From an uncultured Prevotella sp. (GTDB lineage: Bacteria; Bacteroidota; Bacteroidia; Bacteroidales; Bacteroidaceae): a stretch of 45,179 bases of DNA. The stretch spans positions 1 through 45,179 of the forward strand of contig CAMWKM010000005.1 of NCBI GenBank assembly GCA_947174835.1. Direction: 5' to 3'. This document shows positions 14,258-20,010 of the stretch, one piece after another. Below the pieces are notes generated by a model. It made no database searches. It was not told where the DNA came from and saw nothing but the letters and a program-made list of their open reading frames with translations. A program made the translations under genes and the position numbers. Every line of letters starts with the position of its first letter. Position 1 is the stretch's first letter.

Positions 14258-16405
14258 TTACCAGCGATCCCTCGTCTGAATATCATCGGCCCAGCGATGA
14301 TCTTTGGGGAAAGGTTGTCCGCCCCAAGCCTTCACCTGCGTCCAAGGCTCTGGATCGCAAGTCCAGAAAGGATGATCAGCAGGCAGCCCGAGCGGCATCA
14401 ACGACAGGCTGGTCATATAGAGCGAGCCATTGTTAGTGTACCAATCGGCAGTCTCTGGCTGATGTCCGCAGAAACCGATAGTCAGGAAGCCCGCATCATT
14501 GTAGTTCTGCTGATAGTCGTACATACGGTGCATCACCTGAGTCAAGGCAGCACGCACCTGTCCGTTCGACAAGTCTTTCGGCAATGTCTGCTTCCAAGCC
14601 ATCAAAGCCAAAGGCTGCATAGCGGCCATGCGATAGGGCGTGCTGCGCCCAATGACGGGGAATGTTCCTTCAGGCGATATGAAACGCTCCAGCACGATGC
14701 TGAACTTCTGGGCTCGCTTCAGGGCACGGTCATAATATTTCTGATACTCCAGTCGCGTGTTGGCCTTGGCATCGATCATGTTCTGCAGGGTCTCTAAATA
14801 CATGGCATGGAAGACATAACTCGAATAGTAGTCGAAGGCAAACACCGGTCCGTCGGCATACCAGCCATCACCTACATACCACTCCTCCACCTTACGGATA
14901 GTCATCATCACACGGAAATCATCATACTCTCTCAGACCCACAGCCTTGGCGATGAAACTTTCAATGACACTGGAGAACAGGAACCAGTTGGTATATGGCG
15001 GCTCGATGCTGCGCAGTTTCTTGAACTCATTGATATAGCGGTCTTTTGTGGTCTGATCCAGAGGTACCCACAGGGCATCGTAGGCACGGATGAACGACTC
15101 AGCGATGTAGGCAGCATCAACCAAGTTCTGTCCGTTGATACCCCAGCACAGATAATCGGGACTCTTTGGGTCTACGGAATTTTTATAGGAAGCCAGTGCC
15201 CACTCGCGCAGCTGCTTCCTCTGTCGGCCTTCTGCCGTATCATCGTCGGGCAAGGCAAGCCAGGGAGCAATACCAGCCATCAGTCGGCCAAAGGTTTCCA
15301 TATAGACCACCTTGCGATTGCGGTTGTCGAAAGAGGGCGAGAACTCCGTCTTCATATTCTTCTGCAATTCACCCTTGGCCATATTCTCCAGCACGGGCTG
15401 TGCCATCCTATAGGCTTCACGGCACCAGTATTCGCGACTGCTCGGCTGATTGCTGGGCACAACCACCTTGATGCGACCATCACTCTCAAACTCCATCGGG
15501 TCGATACACACCTCACGATGGAAACCCGGCCCATTGTTCTTGTCTATATAGGCAGGATTGATGCGGTGATAGACGATATACCATTGATCGGTACCAGGCA
15601 CTTGCAACACGGAATTGTGGGCCGTTCCATAAATCTGCCGTTCCGGACGCTGCTGCAGGATGACAGGCTGATCAGCCACACGGATGGGCCCCAGAGGCGA
15701 CTTGCTGGTGCCGTATGCCACATGATAGTTGGGCGAACCAGTGTCGTCGACACTCCAGAGGAAATAATAGATGCCGTTGCGCTTGAACACATACGGTCCC
15801 TCACGATATTGGTAGTCCTGCTTTGTACCACCGCGAGGTGTCATCAGCGTAATGGTAGTAGTATCAATGGAAGTCATGTCAGCGTTCAGCTTGGCACCAG
15901 CCATATAGCCATTGCCCCAATAGAGATAACTCTGCCCGTCTTCATCAGTAAAGACATCAACATCAATCTGCTGACCGTTCTTCTGCCCTGCAGGCCGTTT
16001 GTCGATAATGGGCCTACCGAAGTCTACAAAGGGACCTGTAGGCGAATCGGCCACAGCCACGCCAATGGCCTTGCGCTCACCCTGATCGCCACTGTAATAA
16101 AAATAATATTTGCCGTTTTTCTTCTCGATAGCTGGTGCCCAAGCATTGCCCTTAGCCCATTTCGTGTCTTTCTTCAGATCGAGGATGATACCCTCATACT
16201 GCCAGTCCTTCAGGTTGTCCGACGAATAGCAGGTAAAATAATAGCCACCCCACCCCGCTGCACCGTCAGTCGTCGAATAGATATAATAGCGTCCGCCATC
16301 AGCCAAGATTTCCGGGTCGGCATGAAGTTCAGGCAGGATAGGATTTTGCTGAGCCGCAGCTGTCAAAGCCACACAGGCCGTTAAAGTCAGTAATAGTCTT
16401 TTCAT
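14258..16405 (-). CDS. Secreted two-domain glycoside hydrolase: GH43 followed by DUF2264 (GH154-like)
   Basis: Signal peptide MKRLLLTLTACVALTAAAQ; GH43 motifs HADPEILADGGRYYIY, IDVDVFTDEDGQSYLYWG, YREGPYVFKRNGIYY; C-terminal half has the DUF2264 pattern (MAGIAPWLAL..., NWFLFSSVIESFIAK..., GWYADGPVFAFDYYSSYVFHAMYL...). Confidence 0.88.
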   Translation of the reverse strand: MKRLLLTLTACVALTAAAQQNPILPELHADPEILADGGRYYIYSTTDGAAGWGGYYFTCYSSDNLKDWQYEGIILDLKKDTKWAKGNAWAPAIEKKNGKYYFYYSGDQGERKAIGVAVADSPTGPFVDFGRPIIDKRPAGQKNGQQIDVDVFTDEDGQSYLYWGNGYMAGAKLNADMTSIDTTTITLMTPRGGTKQDYQYREGPYVFKRNGIYYFLWSVDDTGSPNYHVAYGTSKSPLGPIRVADQPVILQQRPERQIYGTAHNSVLQVPGTDQWYIVYHRINPAYIDKNNGPGFHREVCIDPMEFESDGRIKVVVPSNQPSSREYWCREAYRMAQPVLENMAKGELQKNMKTEFSPSFDNRNRKVVYMETFGRLMAGIAPWLALPDDDTAEGRQRKQLREWALASYKNSVDPKSPDYLCWGINGQNLVDAAYIAESFIRAYDALWVPLDQTTKDRYINEFKKLRSIEPPYTNWFLFSSVIESFIAKAVGLREYDDFRVMMTIRKVEEWYVGDGWYADGPVFAFDYYSSYVFHAMYLETLQNMIDAKANTRLEYQKYYDRALKRAQKFSIVLERFISPEGTFPVIGRSTPYRMAAMQPLALMAWKQTLPKDLSNGQVRAALTQVMHRMYDYQQNYNDAGFLTIGFCGHQPETADWYTNNGSLYMTSLSLMPLGLPADHPFWTCDPEPWTQVKAWGGQPFPKDHRWADDIQTRDRW

Positions 16406-16548
16406 CGTTTTATGGTACGTTAGTTATTTTTTGACTACAAAGATACAAACAAAAAAATGAAATTCCTCAGTTTTTCGTCAGTTTTTATGTTTAGTGTTTG
16501 AAGCGGGCCGGCCTTATGTGCATCTTGGCTGGTAGCCTCACACCGAGG

Positions 16549-16734
16549 TTACGGGACGAGATCGATGCAGAGCTTCTCTGAAAGATAGGCCACGATATTG
16601 GGCGGAAGGGCTTTCATGTGGGGTCTGAAGCCCATCGTCCGCAACTCGTCCTGATATGGACGGCACCATTTCGAGAGCGTCTTCACCGACACGCCTGCAT
16701 GGTCGGCCAACTGTTGTTTCGTCATTGCTTTCAT
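16549..16734 (-). CDS. Small HTH-type DNA-binding protein (DUF4248-like)
   Basis: MKAMTKQQLADHAGVSVKTLSKWCRPYQDELRTMGFRPHMKALPPNIVAYLSEKLCIDLVP: an HTH followed by an L..G.R...K.L.P..V pattern. Confidence 0.65.
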   Translation of the reverse strand: MKAMTKQQLADHAGVSVKTLSKWCRPYQDELRTMGFRPHMKALPPNIVAYLSEKLCIDLVP

Positions 16735-16756
16735 AAGGCATAAGTCTTAAATTGTG

Positions 16757-16844
16757 TTACTATGGTGTTTACGTCGTATAAGTATCATACTTACGAGGGC
16801 TAAGTATATGGTTTACAGGGTGTAAGTAGCATCTTCAGGATGAC
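16757..16844. repeat. Four degenerate 22-bp direct repeats (iteron-like)
   Basis: Units start at 16757, 16779, 16801 and 16823. Shared pattern TAAGTAT....TTTAC; the second unit carries the palindrome TAAGTAT-C-ATACTTA. Confidence 0.6.
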
Positions 16845-17575
16845 AGGAAAAGCAAGTCGGCGATGTCTATCTTTGCGGCTTTCTGTCTCTTGGTGGCCCG
16901 CTGTTCCAGAATGCTGCTGACGGTAACGGGATGCCCGAACACGTCGCTGGCAGCCTGTGCAATCTTGTACCACTCGCGATAGGTGTCACCCGTCTCGTCG
17001 GTGTCTGGGAAGAGAATCACCTTTCGCCCTGCCAAGGGTCTGAGCCTTGTCACGCTCAATTCGGTCTTTCCACCGGTGGCCAACCAGTGATAGCCGGGTT
17101 TCACCTCCGACATGATGACAGCGCTCTTCTCGGACTCCACGACGGCTATCTGAGAACCGGGGCCGGAGGCATCTGCCAGCAAGTGTAATCCAAACAGGCA
17201 GTGCTCACTCTTGAAGTCGTCGGGCAGCATCCCTGCGCGTCGAAGCTGGTAGCACACCCACGAGGGATTGCGGTCATGGTCGCGGTGGCAGTCCTCGCGG
17301 TAGTACATGATCTTGCCGTCGCGCGTCACCTCGTGCTCGTCTATCTGCCAGAAAATCACGCCACCGTCGCGGCTCATGCCCAGCCGGTAGCGCATGGCGG
17401 CACGTGTCATCTGCTCCTCGGTCATGTAGCCGCAGGCCACCAAAGCCTTGCAGAACTGCGACTCCGTAGAGAGTCGACGCTGCCATAGCGGGCGCATATC
17501 CTGCGGGCGGTCATGCCCAAGCTCATGGCTCATGGCCTTGAAAGTATGCTGGAAAAGTTCGTTCATCTGAATCAT
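16835..17575 (-). CDS. TOPRIM/primase-like protein of mobile-element type (DUF6371-like)
   Basis: YRLGMSRDGGVIFWQIDEHEVTRDGKIMYY; IAVVESEKSAVIMSEV (TOPRIM E) and KVILFPDTDETGDTYREW (DxD). Start MIQMNELF preferred; the ORF extends to 17689. Confidence 0.8.
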   Translation of the reverse strand: MIQMNELFQHTFKAMSHELGHDRPQDMRPLWQRRLSTESQFCKALVACGYMTEEQMTRAAMRYRLGMSRDGGVIFWQIDEHEVTRDGKIMYYREDCHRDHDRNPSWVCYQLRRAGMLPDDFKSEHCLFGLHLLADASGPGSQIAVVESEKSAVIMSEVKPGYHWLATGGKTELSVTRLRPLAGRKVILFPDTDETGDTYREWYKIAQAASDVFGHPVTVSSILEQRATKRQKAAKIDIADLLFLSS

Positions 17576-17619
17576 TGCAAATTGAAGGCTGGAAAATTGA
17601 AGTTTCTTGGGGGGCGGAT

Positions 17620-17687
17620 GAAGCCTCCCCCTCATATCTAAGTCCCCCCTATAAGGGGGGACAGATATAAGAGGGGGGAGAGGCTTC
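17620..17687. repeat. Long G/C-tract hairpin across the end of the ATPase gene (REP-like)
   Basis: Inner stem GTCCCCCC-TATAA-GGGGGGAC (17642-17662), then ATATCT/AGATAT, CTCCCC/GGGGAG and GAAGCC/GGCTTC segments outward. Confidence 0.8.
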
Positions 17688-18839
17688 AAGGGGGGGAGCG
17701 TGGCGATAGACGGTACGGTTTTCGTGCATGGCCTTCACGATGATCTTCCGCTTCAGGGCCTCGTCAAGCAGCTTGTTGTACTTGAACGGAACGACGATAC
17801 CAGACAGCTGCATCACCTTATCGCGCAGTTCGTTGCCGCTGACGTCCACTCCGCTGCGCATGGCATCGAGGAACAGACGCGACACATCGAACTGCCATCC
17901 GCCACGGGCACCTTCGTCGTGCACGATATACTCAGGATTCAGCTGCGGCAGACGCTTCTTCGGAGCACACTCACCACCACCGTCACCAGCAGGCACGCCA
18001 CACTCCAGAGGAAGCCCGTCGGCTCCCACCTCGAAGTACAGCGTCTGACCGATGTCGTACTTGCGCGTCAGCGTCTGCTCCAGCTTGAAGATGCGCTGCG
18101 GCATCATCTTCTCGCAGGCATACACCTCAAACGCCTTGTTCGTCAGTTCCGTGCCGATCCAGCCGCGAAGGCTCCGGTCTTCGACGCTCTTGTTCCGGTG
18201 GAGCACGCACACGATGCAGCAGTTCTGGGCCGTGGCCAGATGCATCAACTCCTCCATCAACTCCTGCGCCAGCACACCGTCGTTGATGTCGTTCACCAGA
18301 TCGCGGATGCCGTCGACTATCACCAAGTCAGGCTTGCACCGCTCTATGGCCTCCTTCAGCAACTCGCGACGCAGCTTCCAGCCAACGGAACGGACGTTGA
18401 AGGCCTCACCCCCGGCCTCTCGCCAGGAGAGGGGCGAACGGGTGCCGCTGTCTGCGTTGACCATCCGCATGATGCGGTTCGTCAGGATGTCTTGTGTCGA
18501 CTCGTCGCTCTGCTCCGTGTCGTACAACAGCACCCTCAGCCTCTCCTTGCAGGCACGTCGCAGGCTGCGCAGACATCCACCGCTCGGGGCAAGGCTCGCA
18601 GCCATCAGCATACTCGTCACAAAGGTCTTTCCGCTCTTGGCCTTACCCGTAATGGCCACCAGTTCGCCCCGGGGGAAACACGGCTTACCAAACAGACTGA
18701 ACAGGAACTCCATAGGCTTCAGTTCCGTCTCAGGCGTTATCCTCAACTGTTCCAACAGCAACATACCCGGGCTCAACGCCGTCTCTTCTCCGGCATGGGC
18801 AAGCTCGGCATCAAGCTGATTCATGATCTCATTCTTCAT
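17649..18839 (-). CDS. RecA/RepA-like hexameric helicase-type ATPase (AAA_25-like)
   Basis: GELVAITGKAKSGKTFVTSMLMAASL (Walker A); RCKPDLVIVDGIRDLVNDINDG (Walker B); QNCCIVCVLHRNKS. Start MKNEIMNQL at 18839. Confidence 0.82.
   Translation of the reverse strand: MKNEIMNQLDAELAHAGEETALSPGMLLLEQLRITPETELKPMEFLFSLFGKPCFPRGELVAITGKAKSGKTFVTSMLMAASLAPSGGCLRSLRRACKERLRVLLYDTEQSDESTQDILTNRIMRMVNADSGTRSPLSWREAGGEAFNVRSVGWKLRRELLKEAIERCKPDLVIVDGIRDLVNDINDGVLAQELMEELMHLATAQNCCIVCVLHRNKSVEDRSLRGWIGTELTNKAFEVYACEKMMPQRIFKLEQTLTRKYDIGQTLYFEVGADGLPLECGVPAGDGGGECAPKKRLPQLNPEYIVHDEGARGGWQFDVSRLFLDAMRSGVDVSGNELRDKVMQLSGIVVPFKYNKLLDEALKRKIIVKAMHENRTVYRHAPPLEASPPSYICPPL
18401..18440. repeat. REP-like palindromic insert read through in frame inside the ATPase gene
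   Basis: aggcctcacccccggCCTCTCgccagGAGAGGggcgaacg; translated on the minus strand as TRSPLSWREAGGEA. Confidence 0.55.
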
Positions 18840-18939
18840 TAACTTGTCGTTTTTAACTACTACAAACTTTTTGCATCGCGATTGCAGCCACAAAGTTACG
18901 AAAAGCATCCGCGAGATTCAGAATACGGAACAAAAAATC

Positions 18940-19040
18940 TTCCGACCATTTCAGGTCGGAAAAAAATGCCAAAAATCAACGAAACACCTTTATACACGAC
19001 TATTGCAGAGAAAGTCGGAATGGGGCGGAAAAGGTCGGAA
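18940..19040. repeat. GGTCGGAA repeat cluster upstream of the ATPase gene
   Basis: TTCCGACC-N6-GGTCGGAA (18940-18961), GTCGGAA (19014), GGCGGAA (19024), GGTCGGAA (19033). Confidence 0.75.
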
Positions 19041-19116
19041 AAAATTTTTCCTGAAAGTGGTTGCCGGTCTCAATAATTCATTTTTTGCGTAGCATGAAGA
19101 CCCTGTCCCACCCTGT

Positions 19117-20010
19117 TTACTTGTTCCTGTGCTTGTTGCTTAGATACATACCAACAAGAATGAGCATAGTACCCAAGATAAAATAGACAGTGATAGGCTC
19201 TGAGAGTATCAACCAAGCAAAGAGGATGGTGGTGACAGGATTGAAGTAGACATAGTTTGTGACCGTCACGGCACCTAATTTATTCATCACCCAATTCCAG
19301 GTCAGGAAACAGAGCATAGAAGCCACACAACCCAGAAACAACAGGTTCCACAGCAATGGCGGCTGAGAAATGAGCAGATGGATGTTCGTGCCGGGATATA
19401 GCACGAAATAGGGTACCATGGAAAGCAATCCATAAAAGAAGATCTTTCGCGTGACGAAGATCGTGTCATAACGGGCATTGGCAGGTATCATCAGCAGGCT
19501 GTAGACAGCCCAACAAAGACAGGCCACAAAGGCTAACCCATCGCCGACAGGCGAGAGATGGAGCACGAAATGACCGTTCATCACCACGACGACAACGCCA
19601 GCCGCTGCCATCAGCGTGCCAACGGCCTGTGTGCGATTCAGCCGCTGCGACTTGTAGAACAGGCCTATCAGAACTGAGGCAAACAGCGGACAGAGGCAGA
19701 CGATGAGCGAAGTGTTGGTGGTTGTGGTGTAGGTCATTGCCCTGTTTTCGGCAAGAAAATACAGCGAGCCGCCGGAGATACCCAACCCCAACATCAGCAA
19801 CTCGTCTTTCCAACTGTCAGCCATCCAGCGAATGCCTCGCCAAAGGCAGAATACCAACAACAAAATATAGGCGATAAAAAAGCGTAGCACGAAAATTTGC
19901 GCAGGCGACAGCCCTCCCAATAGCAGTAGTTTGGTAAACACGAATGTTGATCCCCAGATGACTACCACCAAAAATGCTACTGCATGATACAAAAGTCGTT
20001 GGTTTTGCAT
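19117..20010 (-). CDS. EamA/DMT family transporter
   Basis: 297 aa, 10-TM pattern, VVIWGSTFVFTKLLLLGGLSPAQIFVLRFFIAY...; second EamA repeat. Confidence 0.92.
   Translation of the reverse strand: MQNQRLLYHAVAFLVVVIWGSTFVFTKLLLLGGLSPAQIFVLRFFIAYILLLVFCLWRGIRWMADSWKDELLMLGLGISGGSLYFLAENRAMTYTTTTNTSLIVCLCPLFASVLIGLFYKSQRLNRTQAVGTLMAAAGVVVVVMNGHFVLHLSPVGDGLAFVACLCWAVYSLLMIPANARYDTIFVTRKIFFYGLLSMVPYFVLYPGTNIHLLISQPPLLWNLLFLGCVASMLCFLTWNWVMNKLGAVTVTNYVYFNPVTTILFAWLILSEPITVYFILGTMLILVGMYLSNKHRNK

Follow-up and report, generated by a model that had tools for sequence, protein, structure and literature searches.

A chromosomal helicase-primase module that lacks an integrase and carries an internal array of repeats at an exact 22-bp spacing lies within 45,179 nucleotides of DNA (the window) from an uncultured Prevotella sp. 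(assembly GCA_947174835.1, contig CAMWKM010000005.1). The same array is scattered over dozens of other intergenic gaps of this genome, which points to uncharacterised mobile or parasitic DNA. The anatomy of the module, the constraint on the spacing of its array and the amplification of that array are plain in the genomes compared. The best explanation, held at about even confidence, is that the window carries a reduced, satellite-replicon-like helicase-primase/iteron module whose origin-like array spreads non-autonomously; its replication and mobility are what we infer. The features of the locus are as follows.

14258-16405, GH43 gene, an ordinary chromosomal flanking gene
16549-16734, minus strand, 61-aa HTH gene, DUF4248-like (HTH families in Pfam, hhalign, alignment)
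16735-16834, minus strand, iteron-like array made up of four palindromic units of ~22 bp, occupying all the DNA that separates the DUF6371 stop from the HTH start
16835-17635 (ATG start at 17635) or to 17689 (TTG start), minus strand, DUF6371 gene (PF19898, E 3.5e-42)
17622-17690, C-rich REP-like palindrome at the AAA/DUF6371 junction (inverted repeat; copies on other contigs)
17649-18908, minus strand, AAA_25 ATPase gene (Pfam PF13481, E 5.5e-13)
18891-18898, minus strand, Bacteroidetes-type -7 box TAACTTTG of the operon (from sequence; L040 has the same leader)
18935-19045, minus strand, upstream control region with TTCCGACC repeats at ~10-bp spacing and a hairpin with a T-run
18940-18961, perfect hairpin TTCCGACC-N6-GGTCGGAA, T-run present
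19117-20010, EamA gene, an ordinary chromosomal flanking gene

Here and below, L numbers denote loci, G numbers genomes (G000 being the host genome) and C numbers contigs of the host. An earlier note on this DNA had described three minus-strand genes of replication type amid ordinary chromosomal genes, and this description holds: the AAA_25, DUF6371 and HTH genes lie between GH43 and EamA, with all three ORFs open and intact and their catalytic motifs conserved. The higher GC content that it had judged by eye is confirmed (0.57 versus 0.49, with a range of 0.56-0.59 in the cassette and about 0.48-0.52 in neighbouring DNA). Likewise, no integrase, relaxase or capsid gene occurs among the ORFs from GH43 to EamA, and thus no integrase with att repeats of the kind that marks an integrative element, ICE or IME. 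PADLOC gave weak MADS matches alone in the window, and given their weakness no claim of a defence system is made. Neither the window nor its relatives gave a credible match in Rfam. The GH43 gene (14258-16405, 715 aa) is itself fusion-like, its residues 1-321 and 319-715 matching separate genes of relatives.

The AAA_25 protein has Walker A (GKAKSGKT) and Walker B (DLVIVDG) motifs, both invariant in an alignment of 18 sequences, and its PHROG matches are to primase/helicase and DnaB-like proteins; it is predicted to be a hexameric helicase-like ATPase of RepA-DnaB type. Its true start is probably 18839, since this position lies downstream of the promoter whose -7 box is at 18891-18898. The DUF6371 protein is a predicted TOPRIM primase-like protein, because its TOPRIM residues E167, D211 and D213 are nearly invariant in alignment, a longer relative (L178) bears a DnaG CHC2 zinc ribbon, profile comparison matches it to DnaG, and the top fold match of its model, which is of moderate quality overall with a confident C-terminal half, is DnaG 3b39 (prob 0.89). 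In the open-access literature a mention of DUF6371 was found in a single paper, in an unrelated context. The HTH protein aligns with DUF4248 by hhalign (prob 94.8) and has the same cluster position; Pfam itself gave no DUF4248 call.

In the control region, the TTCCGACC repeats have counterparts at the same place in L039 and L040, the two relatives nearest to the window copy. The GGTCGGAA repeats reported earlier from this end are a real local cluster (18940-19040) with the perfect hairpin. As a window-wide repeat GGTCGGAA was rejected, 21 occurrences with one mismatch being found in the whole window against 24.8 expected. Five further sites of the hairpin, and relics of the control region, are present elsewhere in the host genome. 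One more cassette was probably lost to assembly at G000:C84:13070-13199 (L198), where a further TTCCGACC control region and its c102-like upstream gene run off the contig end. The C-rich palindrome has many genomic copies elsewhere, some adjoining dispersed arrays; it shapes the ends of both the AAA and DUF6371 proteins, and the alternative TTG start of DUF6371 at 17689 falls within it.

The iteron-like repeats also noted earlier are real and stronger than claimed, with 22-bp units, and are internal to the operon, ahead of the HTH gene, rather than at the element's end. At lag 22 the self-match of the window array is 0.61, compared with 0.35 in shuffles, none of 500 being as high. Upstream of the HTH gene in 32 non-redundant cassettes, the best self-match averages 0.523 at lag 22; no other lag between 12 and 33 is raised (0.28-0.39), and shuffles average 0.329 (sd 0.010). 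The unit sequences vary by subgroup (AAGTATGATACTT; CGTTTGAAGCCTCCAAACG; AATGTAACGTTCAAACGACCC; others), so that what is conserved is the spacing, not the unit sequence, and the spacing is under constraint. In some cassettes no array separates DUF6371 from HTH, and the class of an array cannot always be read from the HTH or helicase clade: in L341, for example, a class-2 array (the second array class, below) accompanies an HTH that is 66% identical. As in iteron replicons, the repeats beside the rep genes are direct, in phase and within the 17-22 bp size range. The open-access literature yielded no account of the array or of a connection between it and dispersed repeats.

The resemblance to VirE/DUF3987-DUF4248 clusters proposed in the earlier note gains support from shared 22-bp arrays, from the HTH-DUF4248 alignment and from the HU-HIG and amidase genes of relatives. 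Clusters of this kind, running VirE/DUF3987-DUF4248-HU-smalltalk-amidase, are recurrent in Bacteroidales, and no explanation for them was found in the open-access literature. The BT4734-like family that they encode along with a VapE helicase belongs to an archaeo-eukaryotic-type primase (AEP) family (PMC5862659). In two Prevotella clusters, L295 and L296, lag 22 is the best (0 of 500 shuffles as high in each), and the same is true in four of four long DUF3987-DUF4248 gaps from Bacteroides finegoldii and Parabacteroides distasonis (again 0 of 500 each). Clusters of Prevotella, Bacteroides and Parabacteroides thus have the array in the interval that separates the helicase-primase gene from DUF4248, and in the window it likewise lies 3' of the helicase-primase gene. 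Further likenesses are a small protein that aligns with DUF4248, the absence of an integrase and, for fuller cassettes, HU-HIG and Amidase_2. The enzymes differ, L295 having PF08800 and PF05272 where the window has AAA_25 and the TOPRIM protein DUF6371, a pair not homologous to AEP/VapE; the window has neither a BT4734-like AEP primase with VapE helicase nor downstream HU-HIG and amidase genes. Two non-homologous primase-helicase types thus appear to share one architecture, because both have 22-bp arrays and the HTH aligns with DUF4248. The array was rejected as an HTH/DUF4248 operator, since in Bacteroides clusters DUF4248 is transcribed towards the array, which lies 3' of it.

Relatives were sought in 200 congener genomes, one per species. 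DUF6371 homologues are present in 87 of the 200, and the AAA-DUF6371-HTH order recurs at unrelated loci, more than 20 of them, in more than 20 Prevotella genomes, none with GH43/EamA flanks. Named relatives with the cassette are mostly rumen Prevotella MAGs, together with P. communis E15-14. Most relatives are fuller cassettes that go on to HU-HIG (PF18291) and then an Amidase_2 or peptidase M15 gene; the window copy, L039 and L040 are without them. Cassette GC exceeds flank GC in 19 of 19 (mean +8.3 points), and L144 and L147 share 97% identity across 4.3 kb and differ in the DNA beyond. Cassettes with stops also occur. Presence and absence, which the earlier note had proposed to compare, could be read in part: relatives' EamA-SdhAB neighbourhoods are without the cassette, but GH43 sits elsewhere and no clean empty site was found through EamA and GH43. 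On each point on which that note had said its reading hung, the sampled relatives bear it out, with no fixed locus, no matching composition and repeats that are conserved. Its suggestion of a domesticated or satellite replicon stands as far as a mobile or satellite-like history goes, given the different loci, the foreign GC and the dispersed deletion derivatives described below. No cassette relative was found on viral contigs searched with DUF6371, and in phage and plasmid records the AAA or DUF6371 relatives are all distant.

The host assembly is a draft of 157 contigs, with several derivative copies at contig ends. It holds one full cassette, yet the class-1 array (that of the window) gives 47 matches at about 31 intergenic loci, and control patterns give 0. 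At least five class-1 matches occur in only five other genomes of the 200: G034 (30; the closest cassette), G003 (11), G121 (8; the second closest), G157 (8) and G045 (6). In G003, G157 and G045 the arrays adjoin HU-HIG or DUF4248 genes. Grouped by cassette class, three of the nine genomes that host close cassettes have many dispersed arrays, as against 3 of the 191 others (Fisher p = 0.001); since no more than three of the nine have them, spread is not automatic. The class-2 array (CGTTTGNAGSCTNCAAACG), the class of cassettes L066 and L165, occurs at 79 sites in the host genome (e.g. C1:13756, C60:13810 and C144:657 of G000), 19 in G142, 9 in G180 and 0-2 elsewhere, control patterns again giving 0. 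It has at most three units per array, usually three in the host, where no parent cassette was identified. No locus falls inside an ORF (0/31 for class 1, 0/8 for class 2), although 75-79% of the DNA at the loci is coding, and array sites are found in every gene orientation, convergent gaps included.

At least nine copies have one common junction, at which the C-rich palindrome of the AAA/DUF6371 boundary is joined to the array with ~790 bp, including DUF6371, deleted; this shared junction indicates that an internally deleted, DUF6371-less derivative has spread. A 550-bp derivative on C21 has lost the enzymes but retains both repeat clusters, the GGTCGGAA region and the array, together with the opening codons of AAA, the palindrome and the beginning of HTH. 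Contig C31 of the host carries array, HU-HIG and amidase, enzymes absent, and copies in G034 comprise array with HTH or array with HTH and HU. A separate locus at a contig start (G000:C11:40-1206, L193/L325) encodes an AAA paralogue (about 41-43%) that an in-frame stop interrupts close to its C-terminus. The gene ahead of it is of the type found upstream in L049, L051 and L055, and the locus is likely a second, broken cassette.

The dispersed copies are, like MITEs, short intergenic deletion derivatives of a coding parent, and the arrays could instead be an independent REP/MITE-like family moved by a RAYT or IS transposase, copies of which the cassette merely picked up. This reading is rather unlikely, though the likeliest of the rivals. 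In its favour, the arrays have a patchy distribution, lie between genes and are both short and palindromic, RAYT-like genes lie near sdhB in relatives, and BrickBuilt of P. gingivalis offers a precedent as a tandem-repeat MITE with IS5-like ends (PMC4596501). The left end of array copies is sharp near -66; the right is mostly at +13 to +30, and the ends form an imperfect ~15-bp inverted repeat, with no transposase in the cassette. Folding as single-stranded DNA is strong for class 2 (z -4.9) but no better than shuffles for class 1 (z -0.4), and no target duplication is apparent by eye. Also against it, diverged cassettes and a non-homologous primase family keep the array 3' of the helicase-primase gene and at a 22-bp spacing, with unrelated unit sequences.

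Alternatively, the arrays could be binding sites used by the host in nucleoid organisation, segregation or a regulon, bound by HTH/DUF4248 or HU-HIG proteins of a domesticated system. Every sampled copy is intergenic, a spacing this regular would suit proteins that bind cooperatively along one face of the DNA, and arrays also lie ahead of HU-HIG genes (L289-L291). Dispersed copies in just a few of 200 congeners, sites in all gene orientations including convergent gaps, common deletion junctions that indicate element amplification, and the 3' position relative to DUF4248 in Bacteroides make this improbable. Least credible is a dying prophage or conjugative-element remnant with replication genes left by chance. 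The missing integrase and capsid genes, the common relics in the host genome, the stops in some relatives and the AAA-DUF6371 pairs of integrase-bearing elements would suit such decay, but in the window all three ORFs are uninterrupted and their catalytic motifs conserved, many genomes share this integrase-less layout, and the array spacing is constrained.

Under the preferred reading of a satellite-like helicase-primase/iteron module, the array would be an iteron-type origin, its 22-bp spacing corresponding to two DNA turns, on which the HTH/DUF4248 protein or the helicase itself may assemble as initiator; the helicase would unwind and the DUF6371 primase prime in IncQ fashion, and as in the AAA-DUF6371 mobilizable elements of Bacteroides plasmids. 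The IncQ/RSF1010 oriV module has a RepA helicase, a RepB' primase and RepC on ~20-bp iterons. The window shares with it an AAA_25-type helicase, a separate primase, a small DNA-binding protein and an iteron-like array at about two helical turns, but is chromosomal, has a TOPRIM rather than an AEP primase and has arrays dispersed genome-wide; its HTH showed no relation to RepC in any search run. The module may move as a rare satellite-like element, the array and its derivatives spreading non-autonomously through its proteins. HU-HIG and amidase could package and release, in which case fuller elements would be satellite-like. Extra arrays could be parasitic derivatives or act by iteron incompatibility, and insertion without a recombinase of its own could occur by illegitimate or homologous recombination at arrays or through a borrowed transposase.

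The AAA and DUF6371 proteins are the helicase-primase pair of integrase-bearing mobilizable elements: they are adjacent, as in the window, in the cfxA element (CP103138) and in NZ_CP032820 mobilizable elements on Bacteroidales plasmids, which differ in having their own integrase, excisionase and mobilization genes. BrickBuilt, with 23-nt tandem units, and the 188-bp PINSR of P. intermedia resemble the arrays as intergenic dispersed Bacteroidales repeats. BrickBuilt differs in its IS5-like TIRs and PINSR in that its source is not known, and neither is linked to a helicase-primase cassette; a check for PINSR in two 50-kb pieces of P. nigrescens turned up no repeat family. Array cassettes could suggest a source for orphan Prevotella intergenic repeats such as PINSR. 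A bolder reading, tentative and on balance doubtful, is a new element class without transposase or integrase, in which helicase-primase and 22-bp iteron array drive the copying and the chromosomal dispersal of the array and of internally deleted derivatives. In the same proposal the primase type, TOPRIM or AEP, would be exchangeable, and an HU/amidase cassette for release would be optional. An invariant 22-bp cis-acting array across two non-homologous primase-helicase types offers a concrete handle, be it an origin, an incompatibility site or a transposition end.

Some fuller cassettes have at their left end a conserved, structured-RNA-like region of ~210 nt with its own promoter and T-run (L144:130-335, L147:224-432, L145:50-262, L155:7264-7480 and L160:6342-6558), for which 48 pairs are predicted, 12 with compensatory changes, with no Rfam match. 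Past the amidase gene the motif ATGATTATGCATTACATCAGAGACCAACAA, encoding MHYIRDQQ, is conserved (L046:6066-6089, L146:6096, L147:4598, L156:11844, L157:4796), and flanks mostly diverge beyond it; it is possibly the right end or a tiny ORF (cf. the 'smalltalk' protein of Bacteroides clusters). At one locus shared by L044 (8818-12033) and L146 (2901-6073), the cassette is 97% identical and the downstream chromosome 89%, possibly a patch of recent recombination or transfer.
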